Positions 641 to 12,348 of a stretch of 44,292 bases of DNA are shown here, piece after piece. Below the pieces are notes generated by a model that saw only the letters and a program-made list of their open reading frames with translations, ran no database searches and had not been told where the DNA came from. This stretch comes from Alistipes sp. Lineage in GTDB: Bacteria; Bacteroidota; Bacteroidia; Bacteroidales; Rikenellaceae. A program made the position numbers and the translations under genes. How positions within the stretch are numbered: position 1 is the stretch's first letter; each line of letters begins with the position of its first letter. The stretch covers positions 1-44,292 of the forward strand of contig JAFXLG010000018.1 of assembly GCA_017531305.1 (NCBI GenBank). Direction: 5' to 3'.

Positions 641-648
641 TATTTTTG
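641..648 (+). promoter_or_regulatory. Probable -7 element for the sigma/RyR/TIR cluster
   Basis: TATTTTTG matches TAnnTTTG exactly, 63 nt upstream of the ATG at 711. No clear -33 TTG lies at the usual distance, so the promoter may need an activator or an alternative sigma factor. That would fit a cluster that begins with its own sigma gene. Confidence 0.45.
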
Positions 649-660
649 AGGCAAGCAATG

Positions 661-678
661 GCGATATTGTAATATCGC
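661..678. promoter_or_regulatory. 18-bp palindrome just downstream of the cluster promoter (operator or leader hairpin)
   Basis: GCGATATT (661-668), GT, AATATCGC (671-678) is a perfect 8-bp inverted repeat with a 2-nt centre. It falls about 5-25 nt past the expected transcription start and before the sigma-gene start. The tiny centre suits a dimeric repressor site better than an RNA hairpin. The function is inferred from position only. Confidence 0.5.
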
Positions 679-710
679 AAGCAACCCAACGACTATAATT
701 GCCGAAAATA

Positions 711-1274
711 ATGACCGATCAACAAATCATAGATGCATTGATTGCTCGTGATGAGCAGGTGACCAAGCAGTTCTTTTTCGGGAGCTGTCGTCCGCTCTTC
801 TTGAGCATAATTCGCTATGTCTTCTCCTATGAGGTGGATTATGATGAGTTTGTCAACGAGTTTTATCTATACCTTATGGAGAACGATGCTCATCGACTCC
901 GAAAGTTTCAAGGGCGCAGCACTATATACCAGTGGATTAAGGTTATAGCTATTCGCTATTTCATCTTGAAGCGTGATAATATGATAGATACCAAGTCTAA
1001 AGAGACTCTTTTAGATAGCCCTGTATTGCAAAAGAGGGTTGTCGATGCGGAGCCGATGCAGACTGCCAAGATCGATATTGAGCATTTGTTTTCTCTGATG
1101 CCCAACAGGCGTTATGTATATGTTCTGCGAAGACTCATTCTGCAGGGCGCAGAGCCTAAGGTGGTAGCCGAGGAGATAGGTACAAATGTAGATAATGTGT
1201 ATAATATAAAGAAACGGGCTTTAGCGGCTCTAACCGACATAGTATTTAAAGAGGTTGAGAAATATGAAAAATAA
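711..1274 (+). CDS. Sigma-70 family (ECF-like) RNA polymerase sigma factor
   Basis: This 187-residue protein has the two-region layout of a small alternative sigma factor. A region-2-like helical segment (about residues 16-88) carries acidic and aromatic residues and a GRSTIYQWIKVIAIRY stretch typical of the -10 recognition helix. A region-4-like HTH (about 125-172) has LxxxGxEPKxVAEEIGTNVDNVYNIKKRALAAL-like spacing. The ATG at 711 is preferred over an upstream in-frame TTG at 699. It opens a same-strand cluster, and its end overlaps the start of the next gene by 11 nt, which suggests translational coupling. It probably directs transcription of the cluster itself or of a stress regulon. The target promoters are unknown. 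Confidence 0.8.
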   Translation: MTDQQIIDALIARDEQVTKQFFFGSCRPLFLSIIRYVFSYEVDYDEFVNEFYLYLMENDAHRLRKFQGRSTIYQWIKVIAIRYFILKRDNMIDTKSKETLLDSPVLQKRVVDAEPMQTAKIDIEHLFSLMPNRRYVYVLRRLILQGAEPKVVAEEIGTNVDNVYNIKKRALAALTDIVFKEVEKYEK

Positions 1275-2256
1275 ATTTATGAATAATAGTATCTCGGCGG
1301 AGGTAATGGCGGCATTCCTTGATGGTAATGCAACTGCGCAGGAGAGTGCGGAGATAATCGGTGCGCTCTCTGAAGATGCCGGATTGAGAGAGTTATTGCA
1401 TATTTCTCGAGCCGTAGATGCCGAGTTGGGGTTAATGCATCAGCAGAGTGATCTAATCCCTATGACTGCGATGGCTGCCACTTGTAATGAAGATAGTTAT
1501 TGCAGTTTGGAGTGTGAAAAATATGTTCTTCGTATGCTTAATATAGATTTTGACGAAGAGCAACTTCTTGCCAATGCTATCCAAAACGGCTGGCAAAAAC
1601 GAAATGGTACGGCACTATATAATGTAGGTCGCCATTTGGAGGAGCAGGGTTTGGTCGTCATGCGCCGATATGAATCCTCAGTCGATGATATAATCGGAGC
1701 ATTAAATATGGGACAAAATATAATAGTTGCTGTTGATGGTGGTGAGCTGCTCGGTGATAGGACTTACGAGATTGCGGAAGATATATTGTTGGGCAAGATG
1801 CCTGATCATACGGTTGTTGTATTATCGGTTGATCCCGATGCTAAAAGTGTGACGATATACGATCCCAACTCACCGAATCCTAAAGATATATATCCGTTGG
1901 AGCAATTCGAGGATGCGTGGAATGATTCGAAAAATTATATGGTAACTATAGCAACAAGCGATATGAAAACATATATACCTTGTCCGATAGATCTATCCGA
2001 TGTGGAATTGGCTGATGAGTTGAATGAGCTGCGTGAGGCGATAGCTGAAAATGCGCACGATGTTTGGGCTGCCGAGCGACAGGCACAAGGTTGGACTTAT
2101 GGAGCCAAGCGCGATGATCTTAAGAAGGAGACTCCCTGCATGGTCGCATATTCTCAGCTTCCTGAAAGTGAAAAGACGTTTGACCGCGAGATGGCTATGA
2201 ACACCCTCAAATTGCTTACTAAATTAGGCTACGACATAGTAAAACGTAAGAAATAG
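1264..2256 (+). CDS. Anti-sigma-like / C39-peptidase-like / RyR domain fusion protein
   Basis: This 330-residue soluble protein has three parts (numbering from the ATG at 1264; a TTG at 1255 is also in frame). Residues about 10-55 resemble the short helical N-terminus of zinc-finger-type anti-sigma proteins (xxMAAFLDGNATAQES), but without a visible zinc site. Residues about 75-230 look like a papain-fold C39 peptidase, with candidate triad C80 (in YCSLEC), H182 (in PDHTVVVL) and D200 (in IYDPNSPNP). Residues about 264-326 are a clear RyR (ryanodine-receptor repeat) domain, with HDVWA, QGWTYG, KRDD, PCMVAY and LPESEK. It overlaps the sigma gene and so is a likely partner or regulator of it. 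The C-terminal 100 residues are paralogous to the small protein at 7228. Whether the peptidase is active is unproven. Confidence 0.75.
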   Translation: MKNKFMNNSISAEVMAAFLDGNATAQESAEIIGALSEDAGLRELLHISRAVDAELGLMHQQSDLIPMTAMAATCNEDSYCSLECEKYVLRMLNIDFDEEQLLANAIQNGWQKRNGTALYNVGRHLEEQGLVVMRRYESSVDDIIGALNMGQNIIVAVDGGELLGDRTYEIAEDILLGKMPDHTVVVLSVDPDAKSVTIYDPNSPNPKDIYPLEQFEDAWNDSKNYMVTIATSDMKTYIPCPIDLSDVELADELNELREAIAENAHDVWAAERQAQGWTYGAKRDDLKKETPCMVAYSQLPESEKTFDREMAMNTLKLLTKLGYDIVKRKK

Positions 2257-2366
2257 CTCTCGGTCGAACTCTACTCTTTCCCCAGAATGGTAAAGGTATT
2301 GTCGGAAATGGTTATTTGTACTATGGTCGCTCGGTGAGAGCGGTTTGTCATAAAGGTGGTAAGTGA
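2256..2366 (+). pseudogene. Remnant 3' end of a surface-protein (FISUMP-type) gene
   Basis: The 130-nt gap between the C39/RyR gene and the PrsW gene has a frame open to TGA at 2364-2366 whose translation ends NGYLYYGRSVRAVCHKGGK. The YYGRSVRAVC ending is the typical C-terminus of Fibrobacter-major-paralogue-type (FISUMP/DUF1566-like) surface proteins common in Bacteroidetes. No start or upstream domain remains, so this looks like a leftover after a recombination. The match is from memory and short, so chance similarity is possible. Confidence 0.4.
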
Positions 2367-2388
2367 CATTTAATTGTTGATTTTGTAT

Positions 2389-3096
2389 ATGATTTATTGG
2401 GTTATCCTGCTAACCGCATTGCTTCCTGTTGCTATTCTTGTGTTTTATATTTATCACAAGGATAAGAATATACCCGAACCAAAAGGACAATTAGTGAAAG
2501 CTTTTTTCTTTGGTATGTTGTCCATACCATTATCATTAGTCATGTCAATCCCGTTTGGGATATTGGGATTATATCCCGAGGAGCCCACGAATGTATTAGG
2601 GAGTATATGCTCTGCATTCTTTGGAGCCGCAATACCTGAGGAGTGTGCCAAATTGTTTGTGCTATGGCTTTTGCTGCGTCAAAATAAGTATTTTGATGAA
2701 AAAATGGATGGTATTGTCTATGCGGTATGTGTATCATTGGGCTTTGCTGCGGTTGAGAATGTGATGTATCTCTTCTCTGATGTCGAATCGTTCATATCTG
2801 TAGGAATATCTCGTGCTGTGTTTGCTGTCCCGGGGCATTTTTGTTTCGGTATTTTGATGGGATATTATTATTCGTTGGCGAAGTTTTATCCTAAGAGCCA
2901 TGGTAAAAATCTATTTCTTATCCTCCTTACTCCAATCATAGCACATGGCTTGTATGATTCTATTCTTTTCGTAACGGGCGTGACTCCTGTAATAAGTGGA
3001 TTGTTGGTGATAGTATTCATATTCTTTTGTCATAAGATGTGGAAGTATTGTAGCCAAAGAATAGAGGAGCTCTTAATAAGAGATGTAATTTGCTAA
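2389..3096 (+). CDS. PrsW-family intramembrane metalloprotease
   Basis: This protein of about 235 residues has seven or eight hydrophobic segments and carries the PrsW/CPBP-like motif set: EECAK (E84, E85), FAAVE (F119, E123), GHFCFG (H150) and HGLYD (H186, D190). In Bacillus subtilis PrsW cleaves the anti-sigma factor RsiW, releasing SigW. Here it sits two genes after a sigma factor and directly after an anti-sigma-like protein. The family link therefore suggests a role in signal release, although that neighbour has no TM segment and so is not an obvious substrate. The TIR protein's extracytoplasmic part is another candidate. The ATG at 2389 is preferred; an in-frame TTG lies at 2374. Confidence 0.85.
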   Translation: MIYWVILLTALLPVAILVFYIYHKDKNIPEPKGQLVKAFFFGMLSIPLSLVMSIPFGILGLYPEEPTNVLGSICSAFFGAAIPEECAKLFVLWLLLRQNKYFDEKMDGIVYAVCVSLGFAAVENVMYLFSDVESFISVGISRAVFAVPGHFCFGILMGYYYSLAKFYPKSHGKNLFLILLTPIIAHGLYDSILFVTGVTPVISGLLVIVFIFFCHKMWKYCSQRIEELLIRDVIC

Positions 3097-3118
3097 CCCC
3101 AAACTAAATATATTTAAT

Positions 3119-5437
3119 ATGTCGTCATTGTTTGAATCTATAAAAGAGTTTATTGTTGAGTTTTTGAGTGAAAACTTCGGTGGGTTTACTTCCTCGGTGC
3201 TATGGGGGAATCCTCTTGCTTTTGAGTCGGTTGATTCTATCTGTTGGATCTCGATAAGGTCTTGGATGTTGCTATTTGGGTTAATGCTATTGGCAATACT
3301 TGCACTCTTGTTTTTTAAGCCTAAGTATGTAGATAAATTATCCAAACACATTTCGTGGCTCTCTATCACAGTCTGGCTTTTGGGCGTGGTTGTCTATATC
3401 ATCGGTTTTTACGATGTTGGGATTAATGGCGTTTCGGTAGTTCTTCGTGCTATAATTGCCTCGTTCAAGATGTTTGTCGTTTCGGATGAATTATCTCGAG
3501 TTTCACCCGTTTTGCAACATGATGCCGCCTATATGGCGTTGTTCTCATTATTACATTTTATTGCAGCTTTCATAACTTTCTTATTTATATTCAGGATGTT
3601 GGGTTATAAAATTAAATCTTCTCTAAAGATATTTTATCGAAGATGGATCTGTCGTGGAACCAATGGACGTGTGATGCATCTGTTTTGGGGTGTCAACGAG
3701 GCTTCATGTTTGATGGCAGAGAGTATTAAACGCCATAATGATAAGTACCATAAAAATGAGGTGATTATCTTTATCGATGTTGATGAAGATAATGAGGATT
3801 ATGTTCAGCGTAAAACCAATTTGGGTGATCTTTCAAATACCATTACTATTAGTAAAAACGAGATGGTCCGATTGGATGCTGTCGATGCTTTGGTAGACCA
3901 TTGTTATAATGGACCAGCGGCGTTCAATAGTGATAAGCCTGTTGATATTTTCGGCATTTTAGGTCTTAAAAATATTAGAGCCATTATAAAACGAAGCTCA
4001 AAATTACATATTTATTTCCTTTCAGAGAATGAGAACAAGAATGTCTCAGGTGCATTGAATTTACAGAACGATATAACACTTAGCTCTTTGCATGAGAATA
4101 AGAATGTAATCTATGTCCACGCCCGTAGAAGTGCCAATAACGAGGTGTTAGACCATTATGCGCAATATGAAAAGAAGCCTGAGAATGTTGGTACTGAAAA
4201 TATTCAGGACAAGGAGGGACTTAATAAGACCGATATTAAAATTATTGATTCGGCATATCTCTCTATCGCAGCTTTAAAACTTGATGATAGAGCTTTGCCT
4301 GTTAATAGCGTTGATGTAAATAAAGAAACAGGAACGGTCGATTCTCCGTTTACCTCAATGGTTGTGGGTTTTGGCGGTACAGGTCAAGAGGCGTTTAGAT
4401 TTTTGTACGAATTTTCAGCCTTTGTTAATTCTAATGGGGATAAGACTCCATTTATGTGTTATGCCGTAGATGCCAAGATTGATGAAATCGAAGGTTTTGT
4501 TCGCAAGAAGATGCCTGCAATAACCTGTGAAGAATTATCTCTTGTCAATGCTTCGATTGACTCAGCAGAATTTTGGGGTAGAGTAGAAAGTATTATTAAC
4601 AAACTGAATTATGTGGTCGTTACGCTTAATAATGATGCACTCGGACTATCATTTGCCGTTAATTTATTTAAGTATGCTCTGATGCATCGAGAAAAGAATC
4701 TCCCAATGTTGAAGATCATGGTCAGATGCTATGAAACTAGCAATGAGAAGCGAATGGATGAAGTTAGCAGGGAACTTAATAAATCGGTTGAGGGCAGAAA
4801 TATCGAGATGCAGATTTTTGGTACCAAGCAGAGTATCTATAGTCGCAAAACAATAATTTCTGACGCTATTTTAGTTGAGGCTAAGGAGTTTCACTGGGTA
4901 TATAAGAAAAAGGCAGAAGTGACAGCTGATGCTCAGTGGAAGAAAGATTTTATTGAGGATAATGGAGTAACAGCTATCGATAGCCTTATCGAAAAGAAGC
5001 GTGAGGATGAGGGTATAATTATGTCACGTTATCATGCTATACAAGATATAAATCGCCGCATTGCGCAGAATATCTCGAATGCCAGACATAGCCGTACCAA
5101 GATGATTTTGATGGGGTTCGATGAAAAAGATCTTTCCGAGCGTCTTAAGCTATATTATGGTTATGTGGATTCTCGCAAGTACGGAACCTTAGATTATGAT
5201 TGTAACGCTTTAGATGCAACGCTTCTTAAGAATATGGCTATCGTAGAGCATGAACGCTGGATTGCTTCTCATAAACTTATGGGTTACACCTATGCGCCCG
5301 AGAACGATCATGAGAAAAAACATCACAAATATCTTGTTCCATGGAAGGATTTAAATACCGAGGAGCAATCTTGGGATTGCGATGTTGTGGATACCACCAT
5401 CAGATTCGCCTATGAAAATAGTAAAAAAATAAATTAG
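3119..5437 (+). CDS. Three-TM protein with RCK/Rossmann-like domains and C-terminal RyR domain
   Basis: 772 residues. Three hydrophobic segments (about 48-67, 78-100, 138-160) are followed by a basic patch, then a TrkA-N/RCK-like segment (about 184-230, MHLFWGVNEASCLMAESI). A second Rossmann-type glycine motif follows (about 414-424, VVGFGGTGQE). The last 66 residues (about 707-766) form a divergent RyR domain, with VEHERWIASHKLMGYTY, KYLVPWKDL and DTTIRFAY. RCK domains bind nucleotides or ions and gate K+ channels, but no canonical pore loop is visible, so calling it a channel would be an overreach. A membrane-anchored ligand sensor or transducer is the safest reading. It is 22 nt after the PrsW gene and 6 nt before the TIR gene, so it is almost certainly co-transcribed. 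Its AT-rich codon use fits the rest of the cluster. Confidence 0.75.
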   Translation: MSSLFESIKEFIVEFLSENFGGFTSSVLWGNPLAFESVDSICWISIRSWMLLFGLMLLAILALLFFKPKYVDKLSKHISWLSITVWLLGVVVYIIGFYDVGINGVSVVLRAIIASFKMFVVSDELSRVSPVLQHDAAYMALFSLLHFIAAFITFLFIFRMLGYKIKSSLKIFYRRWICRGTNGRVMHLFWGVNEASCLMAESIKRHNDKYHKNEVIIFIDVDEDNEDYVQRKTNLGDLSNTITISKNEMVRLDAVDALVDHCYNGPAAFNSDKPVDIFGILGLKNIRAIIKRSSKLHIYFLSENENKNVSGALNLQNDITLSSLHENKNVIYVHARRSANNEVLDHYAQYEKKPENVGTENIQDKEGLNKTDIKIIDSAYLSIAALKLDDRALPVNSVDVNKETGTVDSPFTSMVVGFGGTGQEAFRFLYEFSAFVNSNGDKTPFMCYAVDAKIDEIEGFVRKKMPAITCEELSLVNASIDSAEFWGRVESIINKLNYVVVTLNNDALGLSFAVNLFKYALMHREKNLPMLKIMVRCYETSNEKRMDEVSRELNKSVEGRNIEMQIFGTKQSIYSRKTIISDAILVEAKEFHWVYKKKAEVTADAQWKKDFIEDNGVTAIDSLIEKKREDEGIIMSRYHAIQDINRRIAQNISNARHSRTKMILMGFDEKDLSERLKLYYGYVDSRKYGTLDYDCNALDATLLKNMAIVEHERWIASHKLMGYTYAPENDHEKKHHKYLVPWKDLNTEEQSWDCDVVDTTIRFAYENSKKIN

Positions 5438-5443
5438 AATCTC

Positions 5444-7159
5444 ATGAGACAATATGATATTTTTATAAGCTACCGCCGAAGCTCGTTTGAGTTGGCGAAT
5501 TTGATAGCTACCCGATTAAAGGCGGCAGGATATAGAGTCTTTTTTGACTTGGAGGCTATGGACTCAGGACCATTCAATAAGCAGTTGTTCCGAGTTATAG
5601 AGGAGTGTCGAGATTTTGTTTTAGTGCTGCCTCCCAACACCCTTGAAAGGTGCAAGGACGAGGATGATTGGGTTCGCAAGGAGGTGCTTCATGCCCTGCA
5701 AAATAAAAAAAATATCATCCCCATATTGCTAAATGGTTTTCAGTGGCCTAAAACCATGCCATCTGGTATGGAGGAACTCTCCATGTATCAGAGTATAGCC
5801 GCATCGATCGATTATTTTGATCTGGCTATGCAGCGTCTTGAAAGTTATCTTAAGAGTCGTAAATATACAAGGCAAAGATTAATTGTTAGATGGGCTACTG
5901 CTACGGTGCTGAGTGTATTCATTATCCTTGTTTCTTTGTTGTGCCTGTTCCGTAGCATTGCCAAGCCGCTGTGTGAGCAAGTGGTGGAGCATCTTACCTT
6001 AAAGGTGGCTATTGCTGATTTTATGATGTCCGATAACAAAATTCTCATTGATACGTGGAAAGATTGTCAAACATCTGATAAAGCCGAGGTGTATGAATCT
6101 CTGGAGTTGGTTGAAGATAATTTGGAATCCTATGAATCGAGTCTGAAAACTTCGATGGAGTTGTCTTCGTGGCAGAAGTTTCTAGTCTCATTGTATCAGA
6201 CAAGCCCATCCTATCTGGCGCAAATTGATGACTATGTTTTATCAATGTTTTCAGAGCTTAAATCAAATATGTCGCAGATGCGTAGCGTTGTCTCCAAAGA
6301 TCAACTCCTTCCATCGGATATTAACCACATAGAAGGAGTTCTTGATCTCTATCCTGCAATGGGAAAGGCTCTCTATTATACATATCTGCAGATTCTAAAC
6401 AAATTGCCCGAATCCTCGTTGGCGAATTATCACGAGCTGGCTCCAAAGTTTGAGAATATGCCAGATACGGGTTTGGGTTTAAGAAATTCTGAGTATGATG
6501 TATTGATCAAGCAGGCTTTTGAGGGAACTGATCATGTCATAAAGGGGCTGCAGGATAATGTTGCTACGAGTGAAGATGAGCTTTATCTCAAGGAAAAAGA
6601 GTTGGACTCTTTGAATAAAGCTGTTTATGCACAATATCGAGGTTTTGTTGAGAAAATCTCTTTCAATGCCGATGCTACGCCAGAGAAAGATTGGAATGGA
6701 ATTCTTGTTCTGTCAGCCTTTCTAGATTTGTCTATCGAGATGTATCAGGAAGCCCTCGCCGCAGGAGATGATCCGGGTTTAGTGACACCTCAGCTTGTTC
6801 TTGCCGATATTAATAAAGCGTTGGACAATTTTCAGAGTTGTCATATGGAGGTGGGTTATGTTGCTTCGGCAAAGGAGTTCTTTAAGCAGACTCTTGAGGG
6901 ATTACCTTTTGGTGGAGTGCTTATTACACAGTTTGCCCCCAATACCACCCATAACGTATATAAGGTCGGTGATATCATTGTTGAGTGGAACGGCTCTCGT
7001 GTTAATAATTTGGAGGATTTGAAAGCAGCCTATCCGAAATCAGCATCGGGCAAGATGAAAATACTGCGTCTTGAACAAGGAAAATTAAAGGAGATCTCAA
7101 TGTCAATTCCTGGGAATGAGGATATTGTTGCTTTTTGCAACCTTATTGATCCCGAATAA
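5444..7159 (+). CDS. TIR-TM-helical-PDZ protein (SARM1-like TIR, predicted NADase)
   Basis: 571 residues. Residues about 3-136 form a TIR domain: YDIFISYRRSS (betaA), GYRVFFDLEAMDSGPF (BB loop), FVLVLPPNTLERC, and DDWVRKEV with E80, the position of the catalytic Glu of NADase TIRs. NIIPILLNGFQWP follows. From memory, the run matches human SARM1 TIR motif for motif (DVFISYRR, VFIDVEKLEAGKF, DWVHKEIV, NIVPIIDGFEWP). A basic stretch precedes one TM segment (about 150-169), so the positive-inside rule puts TIR in the cytoplasm. The long helical region (about 175-470) and the PDZ domain (about 483-560, with GDIIVEWNG) would then lie outside. This implies an outside-in design: envelope sensing controlling NAD breakdown or signalling. 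The function is inferred. Confidence 0.85.
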   Translation: MRQYDIFISYRRSSFELANLIATRLKAAGYRVFFDLEAMDSGPFNKQLFRVIEECRDFVLVLPPNTLERCKDEDDWVRKEVLHALQNKKNIIPILLNGFQWPKTMPSGMEELSMYQSIAASIDYFDLAMQRLESYLKSRKYTRQRLIVRWATATVLSVFIILVSLLCLFRSIAKPLCEQVVEHLTLKVAIADFMMSDNKILIDTWKDCQTSDKAEVYESLELVEDNLESYESSLKTSMELSSWQKFLVSLYQTSPSYLAQIDDYVLSMFSELKSNMSQMRSVVSKDQLLPSDINHIEGVLDLYPAMGKALYYTYLQILNKLPESSLANYHELAPKFENMPDTGLGLRNSEYDVLIKQAFEGTDHVIKGLQDNVATSEDELYLKEKELDSLNKAVYAQYRGFVEKISFNADATPEKDWNGILVLSAFLDLSIEMYQEALAAGDDPGLVTPQLVLADINKALDNFQSCHMEVGYVASAKEFFKQTLEGLPFGGVLITQFAPNTTHNVYKVGDIIVEWNGSRVNNLEDLKAAYPKSASGKMKILRLEQGKLKEISMSIPGNEDIVAFCNLIDPE

Positions 7160-7227
7160 ATTTTAACGCAGTGATAGATTTGGGCAAAAGAATTGTTCTA
7201 TAATAGAAACTTAATCAAGAGAGAACA

Positions 7228-7515
7228 ATGAAGAATATGTATGTGCCGCAACCGATGGATACAAGCGATATCCAGTTGCCAAAGGAGTTGGATGTGCTTA
7301 TAGAGCAGATGGCAAAGAACGTTCACGAAGTGTGGGCTCAGAGCCGTATGGAGCAGGGTTGGACTTATGGCGAGAAGCGGGATGATACTTTGAAAACACA
7401 TCCTTGTCTGGTCGCTTATGAGGATTTGCCCGAGATAGAGAAGGCGTATGATCGAGATACTGCACTCGGAACGCTAAAATTGATAAGTAAATTAGGCTTT
7501 AAAATCTCTAAGTAG
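7228..7515 (+). CDS. Stand-alone RyR domain protein
   Basis: 95 residues, nearly all of it a RyR domain (about 32-93), with VHEVWA, QGWTYGEKRDD, HPCLVAYEDLP and YDRDTALGTLKLISKLGF. It matches the last 100 residues of the protein at 1264-2256 along its whole length, including the leader (Y-I/V-P-x-P-I/M-D-x-SD), so the two are paralogous modules. RyR domains occur in the ryanodine receptor and in bacterial and phage proteins of mostly unknown function. It follows the TIR gene after 68 nt and ends the cluster, with a terminator right behind it. It may act as a free ligand-binding subunit or competitor of the fused copies. Confidence 0.8.
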   Translation: MKNMYVPQPMDTSDIQLPKELDVLIEQMAKNVHEVWAQSRMEQGWTYGEKRDDTLKTHPCLVAYEDLPEIEKAYDRDTALGTLKLISKLGFKISK

Positions 7516-7536
7516 CATTCGTATCATTTTTTTACA

Positions 7537-7567
7537 AGAGGCAGATTATCCTATCTGTCTCTTTTTT
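7537..7567 (+). terminator. Intrinsic terminator closing the RyR/TIR cluster
   Basis: AGAGGCAGAT (7537-7546) pairs with ATCTGTCTCT (7553-7562) with one G/T wobble, followed by six T residues. It lies 22 nt after the stop of the small RyR gene and separates the cluster from the rhamnosidase gene. Confidence 0.8.
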
Positions 7568-7645
7568 GCTGGATAAGATAATAGGGTAGTTCGCCCCAAT
7601 CTGCTAATATAATTTATGTTATAAGCCCTTTTTGAGGATAAAGTA

Positions 7646-7740: not shown

Positions 7741-10305
7741 ATGAAAACTAAAATTACTCGTTTGTCTTATTTTGCCACACTTTTGGCTGCCATTTTTATG
7801 GTTGCTTGTGGCGAGAAAAGCAGCTTTGTAGGGCATAAGACCGAAGCGTTGGATGCATCTGCATGGCAATCTTCTAAATGGATTTCGGCGGTAGATGCTC
7901 CTGTTTTGGAGAAGTGGAATCACGATCGCGCTGCCGATGGTGCAAGTTGGTTTGTTTCTACTGTCAAGAATGAGGGCAAGGTCGTCTCTGCCAAGTGGAT
8001 GACTGCAGGTTTGGGCGTTTATGAGATCTACCTGAATGGCAAGCCTGTCGGTAATGAGTTCCTTAAGCCTGGTTTTACCCATGTGTTAAAGACTCGCCGT
8101 TCGTTTACCTATGATATCACCGATGCCTTCAATAAGGCTAATGGTGGCGAAAACCAGCTCTCTGCGCAGGTTACACCGGGTTGGTGGGCTGATAAAATTG
8201 TGACTCCAGGTAACTCTAAGATGTGGGGTACGAAGTGTGCTTTCCGTGGTGTGCTGGAGCTTACCTATGACGATGGTAGCAAGAAGTTGTACGGTACCGA
8301 TCTCGATAATTGGAAGGCTGGCATTGCAGGTCCTGTGAAGCATTCAGCTATCTTCGATGGTGAGGAGTACGATGCTCGCGAGCCTATGGGCTATGCTGTT
8401 GCCGATAAGCTCTCTAAGCCAGAGGAGAATAAGGAGTTTAAGGGCGAGATCTTGCCTTCTGAGGGTGCAGAGATCTATCTTCGTCATGATCTTGAGTTGA
8501 GTCCTGTTGAGGCTTATATCTGGAAAGATGTAGAAGGTAAGAAGGAGAAAGAGTTCGGTAAGGTAGTTATCTCTAAGCATTTTGCCGATGGTGAGCAGAT
8601 CGTTTTGAAGGCAGGTGAGAATCTTGTTGTAGATTTCGGTCAGAACTGTGCTGGCGTGCCATCGTTTGTCTTCAAGGCAGCCGAGGGTACAACCCTTACA
8701 TGCCTCCCTGGAGAGTTGCTCAACGATGGAAATGGCGCACGCAGTCGTGGTATGGATGGTCCTGAGGGTAGTGTTCACCGTGAGAACTTGCGTACTCCAA
8801 ATACTGCTTTCTTGATGAAATACACATTCGGCAAGGGCGGTAAGTTCGTAAGCTATCATCCTACTCGCACATTCTATGGCTATCGCTATGCTGCTATCAC
8901 TGCCGATGGCGATGTTACCATCAAGAAGATCTCGTCTATCCCTGTAACCTCTATCGCTGAGAATCTTGAGATAGGTAAGATCTCTACAGGCAACGAACTT
9001 ATCAATAAACTTATCTCCAACACATATTGGGGTCAGCTTTCGAACTATCTTTCAGTTCCAACTGACTGTCCTCAGCGTAACGAGCGTTTGGGTTGGACTG
9101 CCGACACTCAGGTGTTTACCGAGACTGGTACTTTCTTCGCCAATACACTCACATTCTTCCATAAGTGGATGCGTGATATGCGTGACAGTCAGGGTCCTAA
9201 GGGTGGTTATCCTGGTGTGGCTCCTCATGCGCAGTATGGTAATGAACTTGCACGTCTGGGTTGGTCAGATGCTGGTGTTATCGTACCTTGGACCGTTTGG
9301 AAGCAGTTTGGCGATAAGCAAATCGTTGATGAGAACTGGGCTTCTATGGAGCTTTATATGAATCATATCAACGAGACTAAGTACGATCACGAGGCTTTGA
9401 TTGATGAGAACCGTAACTATCAGTGGGCAGACTGGTTGAGCTATGAACCATTGGAGAGTTGTGGTGGCGGTGCATTTGTCGATGGTAAGCCACGTCCTGA
9501 GACTCTCGTTTATTGGAATTACCTGAGCGCATCATATTGGGCTATTGATGCCTCGATGATGGTCGATATGGCAAAGGCTACAGGTCGCGATGCTGCTCCT
9601 TATGAGAAGATGGTTCAGGATGCAAAGGCATATATGAAGGAGCAGTTCTTCAATGCCGATGGCACTTTCAAGACCGATATTCTTAATACGATGCAGACTC
9701 CTGCGTTGTTCGCCTTGAAGAACAATCTCTTCGAGGGCGAGGCTAAGGCTAAGATGATTGCTCGCCTGCGTGAGAACTTCAAGCAGCACGATAATTGCTT
9801 GCAGACAGGTTTCTTGGGTACTTCTATCCTTATGGCTACACTCACCGAGAACGGCATGTCGGATATCGCTTATGAGCTTTTGTTCCAGCGTAAGAATCCA
9901 AGCTGGCTATATTCTGTAGATAACGGTGCAACCACTATCTGGGAGCGTTGGAATAGCTATATGGTCGAAAAGGGTATGGGTCCTCGTGGTATGAACAGCT
10001 TCAACCACTACGCTTATGGTTGTGTTTGCGAGTGGATTTGGGAGACTGCAGCAGGTATCGCAGCCGATCCAAAGACTCCAGGTTTCAAGCATATCATCAT
10101 GAAGCCGCTGCCAGATAAGCGTTTGGGTCATCTTTCGGCTGAGTATGAGTCGGCTGCAGGTTTGATCAAGAGTGCATGGCGTTATGAGGGTGATAAGTGG
10201 ATCTGGGAGTTCTCTATCCCAGAGAGCGCAACAGCTACCGTTACACTCCCTGGTCAGAGCGAATCTAAGAAGTATGAAAGCGGTGCATATACCGTTACTC
10301 TCTAA
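7741..10305 (+). CDS. GH78 alpha-L-rhamnosidase, lipoprotein
   Basis: 854 residues with a lipoprotein signal (lipobox MVAC, C23). The N-terminal beta-sandwich region (about 60-400) is followed by the (alpha/alpha)6 catalytic barrel. The family motif DCPQRNERLGW spans 442-452 with acidic E448, and TTIWERW around 731-737 carries E735, the usual general-base position. A C-terminal beta domain closes the protein. It would remove terminal L-rhamnose from plant or bacterial glycans at the outer membrane or in the periplasm. It has its own promoter and terminator and is a single-gene unit, with no SusCD next to it. Expression is probably high, judging from its use of a few favoured codons. Confidence 0.92.
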   Translation: MKTKITRLSYFATLLAAIFMVACGEKSSFVGHKTEALDASAWQSSKWISAVDAPVLEKWNHDRAADGASWFVSTVKNEGKVVSAKWMTAGLGVYEIYLNGKPVGNEFLKPGFTHVLKTRRSFTYDITDAFNKANGGENQLSAQVTPGWWADKIVTPGNSKMWGTKCAFRGVLELTYDDGSKKLYGTDLDNWKAGIAGPVKHSAIFDGEEYDAREPMGYAVADKLSKPEENKEFKGEILPSEGAEIYLRHDLELSPVEAYIWKDVEGKKEKEFGKVVISKHFADGEQIVLKAGENLVVDFGQNCAGVPSFVFKAAEGTTLTCLPGELLNDGNGARSRGMDGPEGSVHRENLRTPNTAFLMKYTFGKGGKFVSYHPTRTFYGYRYAAITADGDVTIKKISSIPVTSIAENLEIGKISTGNELINKLISNTYWGQLSNYLSVPTDCPQRNERLGWTADTQVFTETGTFFANTLTFFHKWMRDMRDSQGPKGGYPGVAPHAQYGNELARLGWSDAGVIVPWTVWKQFGDKQIVDENWASMELYMNHINETKYDHEALIDENRNYQWADWLSYEPLESCGGGAFVDGKPRPETLVYWNYLSASYWAIDASMMVDMAKATGRDAAPYEKMVQDAKAYMKEQFFNADGTFKTDILNTMQTPALFALKNNLFEGEAKAKMIARLRENFKQHDNCLQTGFLGTSILMATLTENGMSDIAYELLFQRKNPSWLYSVDNGATTIWERWNSYMVEKGMGPRGMNSFNHYAYGCVCEWIWETAAGIAADPKTPGFKHIIMKPLPDKRLGHLSAEYESAAGLIKSAWRYEGDKWIWEFSIPESATATVTLPGQSESKKYESGAYTVTL

Positions 10306-11295: not shown

Positions 11296-12348
11296 TTATA
11301 ACTCAATATCGGGCCACCCATCTTCATTCCACTCGATCTCTTTGATTATGAGTTGCGACTCGCCACTTTGTGCGCTATATGCGTGTGCCACTAAAATATC
11401 TTTGCCATCAATGTGATGTATTCCACAATGTCCTGCCGCCACCCACTTTTCGGAAGATGATTTTATGGGCTTGTAACCTCCTCTGCTCATGGCTTTGCCC
11501 GAATCATCCAGATAAGGACCTTTTATATCTTTCGAGCGACCTACAACCATTCGGTAGGTGCTGTTTTTGCCGCGACAACAAAAATCTATCGAAACAAACA
11601 GATAGTAATATTCCCCTCTCTTGTATATAAATGGTGCTTCGATGGCATTCTCCCGACTCTCGGCTCTATCCCTTGTGGCTATGGTTATCCACTCCTGTGG
11701 CTCTTTGGGCTTGGAAAGATCTTTGTTTAGTCCGAATAGCTTTATGCCACCCCAGAATGATCCGAAGGAAAACCAACCCTTGCCCTCATTGTCAATTATT
11801 ACATTTGGATCTATCGCATTCCATTGATCTCTTTCGGGTATGGACTCTACCACTACACCTCGATCTTCCCATTTATACTCTTGACTGCTTCTATCAAGTG
11901 TCTTGTTTACGGCATGCCCGATAAATGAGCGATTCTTGCCAAATGTAGAGCAAGAATAATACAAGTGATACTCTCCGTTGTGATATATTATGTCGGGAGC
12001 CCACATATGCCCTCTGAATCCTGGTATGCGATCCTTCATCCATTGTGGTATCTGCTCGAATACTCCACCTTGAGCCTTCCAATGCTTCATATCATCCGAT
12101 ACGAAGGTCGAAATTCCCCATCCCGTGCAGAACAGATAATACTTGTCTTCGCATTTGATTAATACAGGATCGTGTACCATTGGCGCAGTGGGGTCATGGC
12201 GAAATCTGGCTTGCTCTTGGTCTTCGAATCGAGCCTCATGGATAGAATAATCGCCACTCTCGGCAGAGTGTGATGCACGTGCGAGCGAAGGCGCAAGCGT
12301 GCCTATTAAAACATAAAGTATAGCAGTAAGAATATATCGCTTCATCAT
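11296..12348 (-). CDS. GH43 family glycosidase, arabinanase-like
   Basis: 350 residues with a Sec signal peptide (hydrophobic to about residue 25, AxA-like cleavage). Five-bladed propeller motifs are present, with the GH43 acidic triad at D60 (VHDPVLI), D180 (NAIDPNVI) and E237 (IEAPFIY). The closest resemblance is to endo-alpha-1,5-L-arabinanases, from HMWAPDI, SFGSFWGGI and GHCGIH. It probably cleaves arabinose-containing side chains of pectin, in line with the nearby rhamnosidase. It is the first gene of a reverse-strand pair with the nitroreductase gene and is divergent from the oxidoreductase gene at 12469. Confidence 0.88.
   Translation of the reverse strand: MMKRYILTAILYVLIGTLAPSLARASHSAESGDYSIHEARFEDQEQARFRHDPTAPMVHDPVLIKCEDKYYLFCTGWGISTFVSDDMKHWKAQGGVFEQIPQWMKDRIPGFRGHMWAPDIIYHNGEYHLYYSCSTFGKNRSFIGHAVNKTLDRSSQEYKWEDRGVVVESIPERDQWNAIDPNVIIDNEGKGWFSFGSFWGGIKLFGLNKDLSKPKEPQEWITIATRDRAESRENAIEAPFIYKRGEYYYLFVSIDFCCRGKNSTYRMVVGRSKDIKGPYLDDSGKAMSRGGYKPIKSSSEKWVAAGHCGIHHIDGKDILVAHAYSAQSGESQLIIKEIEWNEDGWPDIEL

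Follow-up and report, generated by a model that had tools for sequence, protein, structure and literature searches.

Second-messenger signaling by TIR proteins is represented in bacteria by Thoeris, type II of which also has a membrane receiver, and in animals by the axis of SARM1, cyclic ADP-ribose (cADPR), and the ryanodine receptor (RyR). The action of cADPR on animal RyRs is debated, and a direct action of cADPR-type signals on RyR domains is unsettled in animals. Regulated proteolysis by PrsW is known for SigW–RsiW, a pair of an extracytoplasmic function (ECF) sigma factor and its anti-sigma factor. Here we describe a six-gene operon of Alistipes sp., located at positions 699–7515 of contig JAFXLG010000018.1 (assembly GCA_017531305.1), whose entire analyzed stretch of 44,292 nucleotides is hereafter called the window. 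The operon resembles Thoeris in that a TIR protein, probably making an ADP-ribose signal, is encoded together with a separate receptor-bearing protein, whereas its receivers carry RyR domains, and a sigma factor/peptidase branch and a PrsW-family protease are added. It recalls the animal axis through a SARM1-like TIR and RyR domains, one of which is located on a multi-segment membrane protein, although only the R12-type repeat is common to animal ryanodine receptors and the window proteins. The ECF-like sigma gene, its overlapping partner gene, and the PrsW gene are reminiscent of SigW–RsiW; however, the partner bears a C39-like peptidase and a RyR domain and exhibited no membrane segment in a hydropathy scan, and the PrsW protein scored below the cut-off of the NCBIfam PrsW equivalog (139.2 against 225 bits). 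The multi-component conflict systems that Kaur et al. described (PMC7159879, PMC8195603) are comparable in their TIR and repeat-domain proteins, variable gene arrays, and, for one subset, an ECF sigma factor, whereas a RyR-based component was not found in the available parts of the two texts, the second of which contains ryanodine in its reference list only. Ryanodine and RyR are likewise not mentioned in the available part of a survey of NAD+–ADP-ribose systems in viruses (PMC9503650). The phage protein RyDEP (RyR-domain defence evasion protein), presented in a 2026 preprint (PMC13232231), shares the RyR (R12) domain and its ligand residues with the operon, and the lone RyR protein is a plausible sponge or glycosidase of this kind, whereas the window RyRs are host-encoded, lie in an operon with TIR, and are also fused to output-type domains. 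Among the matches listed from the open-licence literature, which also held reviews on animal SARM1, cADPR, and ryanodine receptors, this preprint was the only paper in which RyR-domain proteins of phages or bacteria act on signals made by TIR, and none described a host TIR/RyR operon. We rated the operon as a new variant within the TIR second-messenger systems, and favor, with a confidence somewhat above even, the reading that it is a TIR-to-RyR second-messenger relay. It comprises six open reading frames (ORFs), all on one strand:

699–1274, + strand: ECF-like sigma factor gene, starting at TTG 699 or ATG 711
1255–2256, + strand: C39-RyR gene, starting at 1255 or ATG 1264; C39-like cysteine peptidase with an extra N-terminal region and a C-terminal RyR
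2374–3096, + strand: gene of a PrsW-family intramembrane protease, starting at TTG 2374 or ATG 2389
3119–5437, + strand: membrane/Rossmann-RyR gene; four hydrophobic segments, a Rossmann/TrkA_N-like region, and RyR at the C-terminus
5444–7159, + strand: TIR-transmembrane-PDZ (TIR-TM-PDZ) gene; TIR, a single membrane segment (residues 151–169), a long tail, and a weak PDZ match
7228–7515, + strand: lone RyR gene; RyR domain alone (Pfam 123.2 bits)

The TIR domain was recognized as TIR_2 with 57.0 bits (Pfam cut-off 28). A search against solved structures gave 19 TIR matches, all of which were SARM1 or TIR-1 chains (best E 1.1e-24) with human SARM1 as the best, and no bacterial TIR appeared among solved structures under E 0.1. 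The Glu of its DWVRKE stretch aligned with that of SARM1 DWVHKE, the catalytic Glu of SARM1, and the aligned residue was Glu in 64 of 65 TIR domains from the collected loci, the remaining one being a gap. The window TIR is a probable NADase on these grounds, as had been supposed in an initial annotation made from the sequence alone. Among the 64 TIR proteins collected (63 from loci plus the window's own), 42 proteins of at least 300 residues possessed a hydrophobic segment at residues 130–240, and the TIR side was the more positive one in 41 of these 42. Such a charge distribution would place TIR inside and the tail outside, and the TIR domain probably faces the cytoplasm; the envelope-facing sensing proposed earlier fits this predicted topology, and only that. 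The tails vary among loci (WD40, Sel1, FGE-sulfatase-like, and others), some TIR proteins, such as the hexapeptide protein of locus L082, lack the membrane segment, and loci with TIR also hold kinase/transglutaminase-TIR, CHAT-TPR, and nSTAND1 proteins. Long one-strand arrays of TIR proteins with varied tails or partners (WD40, Sel1, hexapeptide, FGE, kinase plus transglutaminase) were observed in or beside RyR loci (L071, L072, L082, L035, L216–L219), and the very high scores of some WD40 and TPR repeats in them are what near-identical copies would give. The single candidate for a direct TIR–RyR fusion in the fetched loci (TIR E 0.0045) was rejected, its match lying inside a Rossmann region. 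In L085, a sub-cut-off TIR fragment (G018:C44:45962-46069), which may be what is left of a former TIR gene, was located between the C39-RyR and lone RyR genes. With respect to known defense types, the TIR was the only one of the six window proteins to match a Thoeris model, and far under cut-off (ThcB4, 33.3 of 220 bits), none of the six matched an effector of the ThsA type (SLOG-SIR2, Macro-TM, or another named one), and PADLOC gave a weak match to the TIR protein only, the other five being unmatched.

All three RyR domains scored above the Pfam cut-off of PF02026 (27.4 bits), with 110.3 bits for C39-RyR, 30.1 bits for membrane-RyR, and 123.2 bits for the lone RyR. According to PMC13232231, RyDEP cleaves 2'/3'cADPR with H75, W78, H100, and D117 as ligand/catalytic residues, six of eight phage RyR relatives assayed bind 2'/3'cADPR without cleavage, and the ligand tetrad is conserved across PF02026. 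The same text states that a human RyR3 repeat domain holds adenine ligands; its own proteins are from phages, and a B. thetaiotaomicron RyR structure is cited as a structural relative only. H711, W714, H736, and D753 of the window membrane-RyR aligned with positions 76, 79, 101, and 118 of PDB 35tm_A, entitled 'Ryanodine receptor Ryr domain-containing protein', which was taken to be RyDEP; all four positions are one off from the numbering of the paper, an offset that a tag residue would give. The full tetrad is present in the window membrane-RyR and also in the lone RyR (H33, W36, H58, D75), and three of the four residues are found in C39-RyR, in which Thr replaces H100. At the family level, the tetrad residues (H, W, H, D) were kept in 54, 54, 51, and 54 of 54 lone RyR sequences, in 42, 42, 42, and 41 of 43 membrane-RyR sequences, and in 28, 28, 10, and 25 of 28 C39-RyR sequences. 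In an alignment of 33 membrane-RyR sequences, 8 of the 65 columns in 702–766 showed full or at least 90% conservation; these 8 include each of the four ligand positions, for which we calculated a chance of about 1 in 10,000. From the kept ligand residues and the phage RyR biochemistry of PMC13232231, we infer that the window RyR domains would bind an ADP-ribose-type ligand, which sharpens their earlier description as ligand-binding modules.

These residues also bear on an unlikely alternative, namely that the RyR proteins are brakes only. TIR would then kill or stall the cell by NAD+ depletion, and the lone and fused RyRs would mop up or hydrolyze its product, with the fusions placing the brake at the membrane and at the sigma switch. 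The RyR H/D dyad is kept, those phage RyR proteins that have been characterized act as sponges or as a glycosidase (PMC13232231), and the lone RyR was the commonest partner of membrane-RyR (25 of 44 loci), all of which a brake would explain. However, RyR was found on three different output-type proteins (C39, membrane/Rossmann, and PrsW), which is receiver-like and which a pure sink need not be, and many RyR loci have no TIR nearby. The evidence fits better with TIR as a signal maker and the RyR proteins as receivers than with TIR as the end effector, as initially annotated.

PF02026 was found in 42 of the 200 genomes searched, the own genome included, with a patchy occurrence within the genus. 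For the co-occurrence count in these 42 genomes, hits within 20 kb were merged to give 49 RyR loci and 86 TIR loci, leaving out two RyR and two TIR rows below the cut-off. A TIR was located within 5 kb of 14 of the 49 RyR loci against 0.62 expected from TIR density (approximately 23-fold), and within 10 kb of 15 against 1.12 expected, a ratio that is a guide only because related genomes are not independent. Where no TIR adjoins the RyR genes, one might act in trans: 36 of the 42 genomes with RyR match TIR_2 somewhere, although such domains are frequent and many of the assemblies are incomplete. A second scan, in which an alignment of seven membrane-RyR sequences was compared with GTDB contigs, gave 45 loci (44 with a recognized ORF) that were picked by the membrane-RyR protein, not by TIR, and several of which are identical with loci of the PF02026 search. 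They were mostly titled as Bacteroidales families and from animal guts, and also included Phocaeicola barnesiae DSM 18169, Prevotella sp. P5-108, and two metagenome-assembled genomes (MAGs) titled Flavobacteriales. Two further loci, L138 and L139, were in MAGs titled Lachnoclostridium and Clostridiales, which may reflect misbinning or transfer. Of the 44 loci, 21 carried TIR in the same-strand run, 25 a lone RyR, 13 a sigma gene, 12 C39-RyR, and 5 PrsW, and at least one of these partners or a second large RyR protein was present in 35 of them. All six components were observed on one strand in L114 and in genome G139 (L071/L072), where they are spread over approximately 22 kb.

A comparable picture was obtained from the other components. 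When genomes of the order were searched with the alignment of C39-RyR, 29 of 393 gave a match, many via the RyR part only, and ten stretches of seven genomes were opened. Both C39 and TIR genes were present in L216/L217, L218/L219, L220, and L221; of those opened for RyR hits, L223 holds a TIR gene and L224 holds one approximately 0.5 kb from RyR on the same strand; no TIR was seen in L222 and L225, which are C39 loci on short stretches. Deduplication left 37 C39 genes, of which six lack a fused RyR. Sigma immediately precedes 35 of the 37 and a TIR lies within 10 kb of 19, and their runs contain a large RyR protein in 22 cases, a lone RyR in 15, and PrsW in 6. For the 23 C39 genes not obtained via the membrane-RyR scan, a TIR was within 10 kb of 8. 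Among 54 lone RyR genes, a set partly obtained through the membrane-RyR protein, 30 adjoin a large RyR protein and 39 have one in the run, which contains TIR in 21 cases and C39 in 13; 9 runs have none of the three. The genes thus recur together in MAGs titled as several Bacteroidales families, so that the absence of co-occurrence by which the initial annotation would have been refuted was not observed, and because the same parts recur in other genomes the six-gene grouping exceeds chance.

This recurrence is relevant to the very unlikely possibility of accretion, in which accessory modules of separate kinds, namely TIR receptors, sigma with C39-RyR, and membrane-RyR with lone RyR, pile up in the same variable islands without joint function. 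Such piling up would be in line with modules that occur apart, cargo that varies widely, a guanine-plus-cytosine (GC) content lower than that of the rest of the window, and the lack of visible operon components around the GH78 gene in 7 of 10 relatives having GH78. It does not readily account for the one strand and small gaps, a RyR domain common to three architectures within one operon, the existence of a PrsW-RyR fusion, or the same combinations recurring in other genomes.

The putative output proteins were further characterized by their domains. Peptidase_C39_2 was found in 9 of 14 C39 family members at E up to 0.1, and the candidate catalytic residues Cys83, Cys87, and His185 (numbered from 1255) were kept in 28 of 28. 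A search of this family for anti-sigma domains gave RseA_N in 1 of 14 (E 0.027) and zf-HC2 in 1 of 14 (E 0.024). The window PrsW matched PF13367 with 134.3 bits (cut-off 23.5) and contains EECAK, FAAVE, and HGLYD, corresponding to the PrsW family motifs EExxK, FxxxE, and HxxxD. A 350-residue protein encoded at 11823–12875 of L219 is a fusion of PrsW (131.1 bits) to RyR (114.8 bits), the sole case among the ORFs scanned, and a spacer of 12 nt separates PrsW from a neighboring lone RyR gene in L089. RyR is consequently fused to three distinct output-type proteins, namely a C39 peptidase, a membrane/Rossmann protein, and PrsW. A second diverged family of approximately 700–900 residues, often encoded directly upstream of sigma (L094, L082, L093, L085, L074 (2707), L105, and L216 (3859)), was also noticed; several members end in an EHxRW...H...D pattern, and no Pfam RyR was detected in the four scanned (L094, L105, L074, L216). 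For the membrane-RyR family, TrkA_N was detected in 4 of 33 proteins with E values no higher than 0.1 (7.5e-4 for the best), no RCK chain was among the solved-structure matches, and a plasmid search gave no match. A phylum-wide profile search found it in 3 of 395 genomes, that is, in its own over its length and in two others by the C-terminal part only. Ten neighbor proteins near some membrane-RyR loci, compared with Pfam, included no common substitute signal enzyme; there were three TPR proteins and one protein that stayed unmatched, while the others fell into varied, mostly metabolic, families, one of the ten (L139) being from a locus with TIR.

The relay reading takes the genes, their order and recurrence, the domains, the residues, and the predicted topology as its observations, and from these the signal product, its binding, gating, sigma release, and defense are postulated. 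The TIR-TM-PDZ protein would reside in the inner membrane with TIR inside and the tail outside, as judged from charge, and a stimulus on the tail would activate TIR, making it a signal-making receptor. Judging from the SARM1 similarity and the Glu residue, TIR would use NAD+ to make a signal of the ADP-ribose type, probably an isomer of cADPR, to which the RyR domains would bind. The membrane/Rossmann-RyR protein may be an effector that changes membrane permeability or another membrane activity, while C39-RyR may be both a receiver and a sigma partner that releases or processes the sigma factor, the freed sigma inducing the operon and perhaps other genes. PrsW, which in one relative bears its own RyR, may assist by intramembrane cleavage, and the lone RyR may buffer or degrade the signal as a buffer or hydrolase. 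The most likely purpose of such a relay would be an inducible defense against phages or other envelope attack. A wider generalization, which we regard as possible though doubtful, is that TIR receptors of the membrane, exchangeable in their extracytoplasmic domains (PDZ-like, WD40, Sel1, FGE-like, and others), all make one ADP-ribose messenger, which is read by RyR on a channel-like membrane effector, a sigma switch, and an intramembrane protease; this would be a bacterial counterpart, possibly a source, of the SARM1–cADPR–ryanodine receptor axis, in which cADPR-type signals drive transcription via sigma.

Several observations weigh against the relay. No TIR was located within 5 kb of 35 of the 49 RyR loci or within 10 kb of 18 of the 37 C39 genes, and the modules therefore also live apart. 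The TVGYG-type potassium-channel filter was absent from the first 300 residues of all 43 membrane-RyR proteins, the window's included, and no RCK family match was found in the window membrane-RyR protein itself. The window PDZ_2 match stayed at 16.2 bits (cut-off 27) and that to a DegP-like model at E 0.0045, below its cut-off; the names RCK and PDZ given initially hence reflect weak matches, all below cut-off, with none for RCK in the window protein. Similarly, the window sigma was matched only by NCBIfam sigma70-ECF with 38.5 bits (cut-off 42.9), and Peptidase_C39_2 reached 20.0 bits (cut-off 24). The phosphate-contacting His position of C39-RyR is Thr in 14, Asn in 4, and His in 10 of 28 sequences, leaving 18 without His. 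Moreover, since PMC13232231 describes the tetrad as conserved across PF02026, its presence indicates ligand competence and not the specific ligand. A rather unlikely explanation is an envelope-stress sigma system without a TIR-made messenger, in which PDZ and PrsW would sense envelope damage in a DegS/RseP-like manner, RyR would read a general adenine nucleotide (ATP, NAD+, or ADP-ribose) as metabolic state, and TIR would be a scaffold. The sigma/partner pair, PrsW, the PDZ-like tail, the RyR loci without TIR, and the adenine ligands of a human RyR3 repeat domain (PMC13232231) are all compatible with it. It is opposed by the Glu kept in 64 of 65 TIRs, the SARM1-like nature of this TIR, the approximately 23-fold enrichment of TIR within 5 kb of RyR loci, and the PDZ match below cut-off. 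Overall, we retain the TIR-to-RyR relay as the preferred reading and regard the interpretation given by the initial annotation as partly supported.

The genome containing the window is 2.05 Mb in 72 contigs and approximately 87% complete. The initial observation of six closely spaced genes on one strand was borne out, the junctions being, in order, an overlap (sigma/C39-RyR), 117–132 nt, 22 nt, 6 nt, and 68 nt, of which the C39–PrsW gap of 117–132 nt had not been listed before. By eye, a short open frame in this gap (2257–2373) resembles the C-terminus of a lost protein, perhaps a decayed or lost cargo gene. Two other features flank the genes:

661–678, no strand assigned: candidate operator, a perfect 18-bp palindrome upstream of the sigma gene, of putative function
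7536–7568, + strand: intrinsic terminator, an 11-bp stem (7536–7563) plus T tail

The palindrome has a single site in its genome, hit on either strand, with none for a reversed control pattern. The terminator, which was also expected from the initial annotation, has the longest stem in the window scan (11 terminator-like sites against 5.3 expected). The promoter-like region was not confirmed, as sigma-70-like promoters were no commoner than chance (27 found against 24.3 expected). Scans of the window for transfer RNAs and with Rfam were both empty.

The GC content is 40.2% over 641–7515 and 46.3% from 7741 to the window end, with a step from approximately 40% to 47% at the boundary to the next gene, an alpha-L-rhamnosidase with Bac_rhamnosid domains (7741–10305). 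A strong GH78 match was obtained in 10 of 60 relatives, and none of the 7 that were opened (8 to 12 kb each) showed operon components beside the GH78 gene; an empty site was not demonstrable, as the window left flank had no match in these seven. The patchy distribution, the lower GC, and the GH78 regions without operon genes fit an accessory, horizontally moved system. RyR relatives were also detected in 237 of 50,697 phage records and in 20 loci of IMG/VR (best 63% identity). The two closest records, of human-faecal 'phage' with RyR identities of 72% and 66%, are flagged UNVERIFIED and unannotated, and the RyR of L160 (IMG/VR) neighbors a transposase, so that not every such hit is surely phage. 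Other RyR neighbors are a head maturation protease (L168) and, in L164 of the viral collection, a methyltransferase and an adenylosuccinate-synthetase-like protein. The viral RyR genes fit, without proving, phage sponges against such host signals. In the contigs L164, L165, L167, L170, and L174 of the viral collection, three genes of comparable size come after RyR, among them in L164 the adenylosuccinate-synthetase-like one, and the short contig L173, which may be host DNA, carries RyR, TIR, and membrane-RyR together.

The operon, whose host belongs to a group often found in animal guts, combines an enzyme like SARM1, the human nerve-death protein, with three proteins that carry a domain by which animal ryanodine receptors bind ligands. 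This pairing suggests a bacterial relay with an NAD-derived messenger. The direct action of cADPR-type signals on RyR domains is raised as an issue in the discussion of PMC13232231, and the operon places a SARM1-like TIR and RyR domains together in one small unit amenable to testing in laboratory strains. If the relay is true, the host receptors that read TIR-made signals would include RyR in addition to SLOG and Macro, phage RyR proteins could plausibly have arisen by copying of such receptors from hosts, and a transcriptional branch would be added to cADPR signaling.

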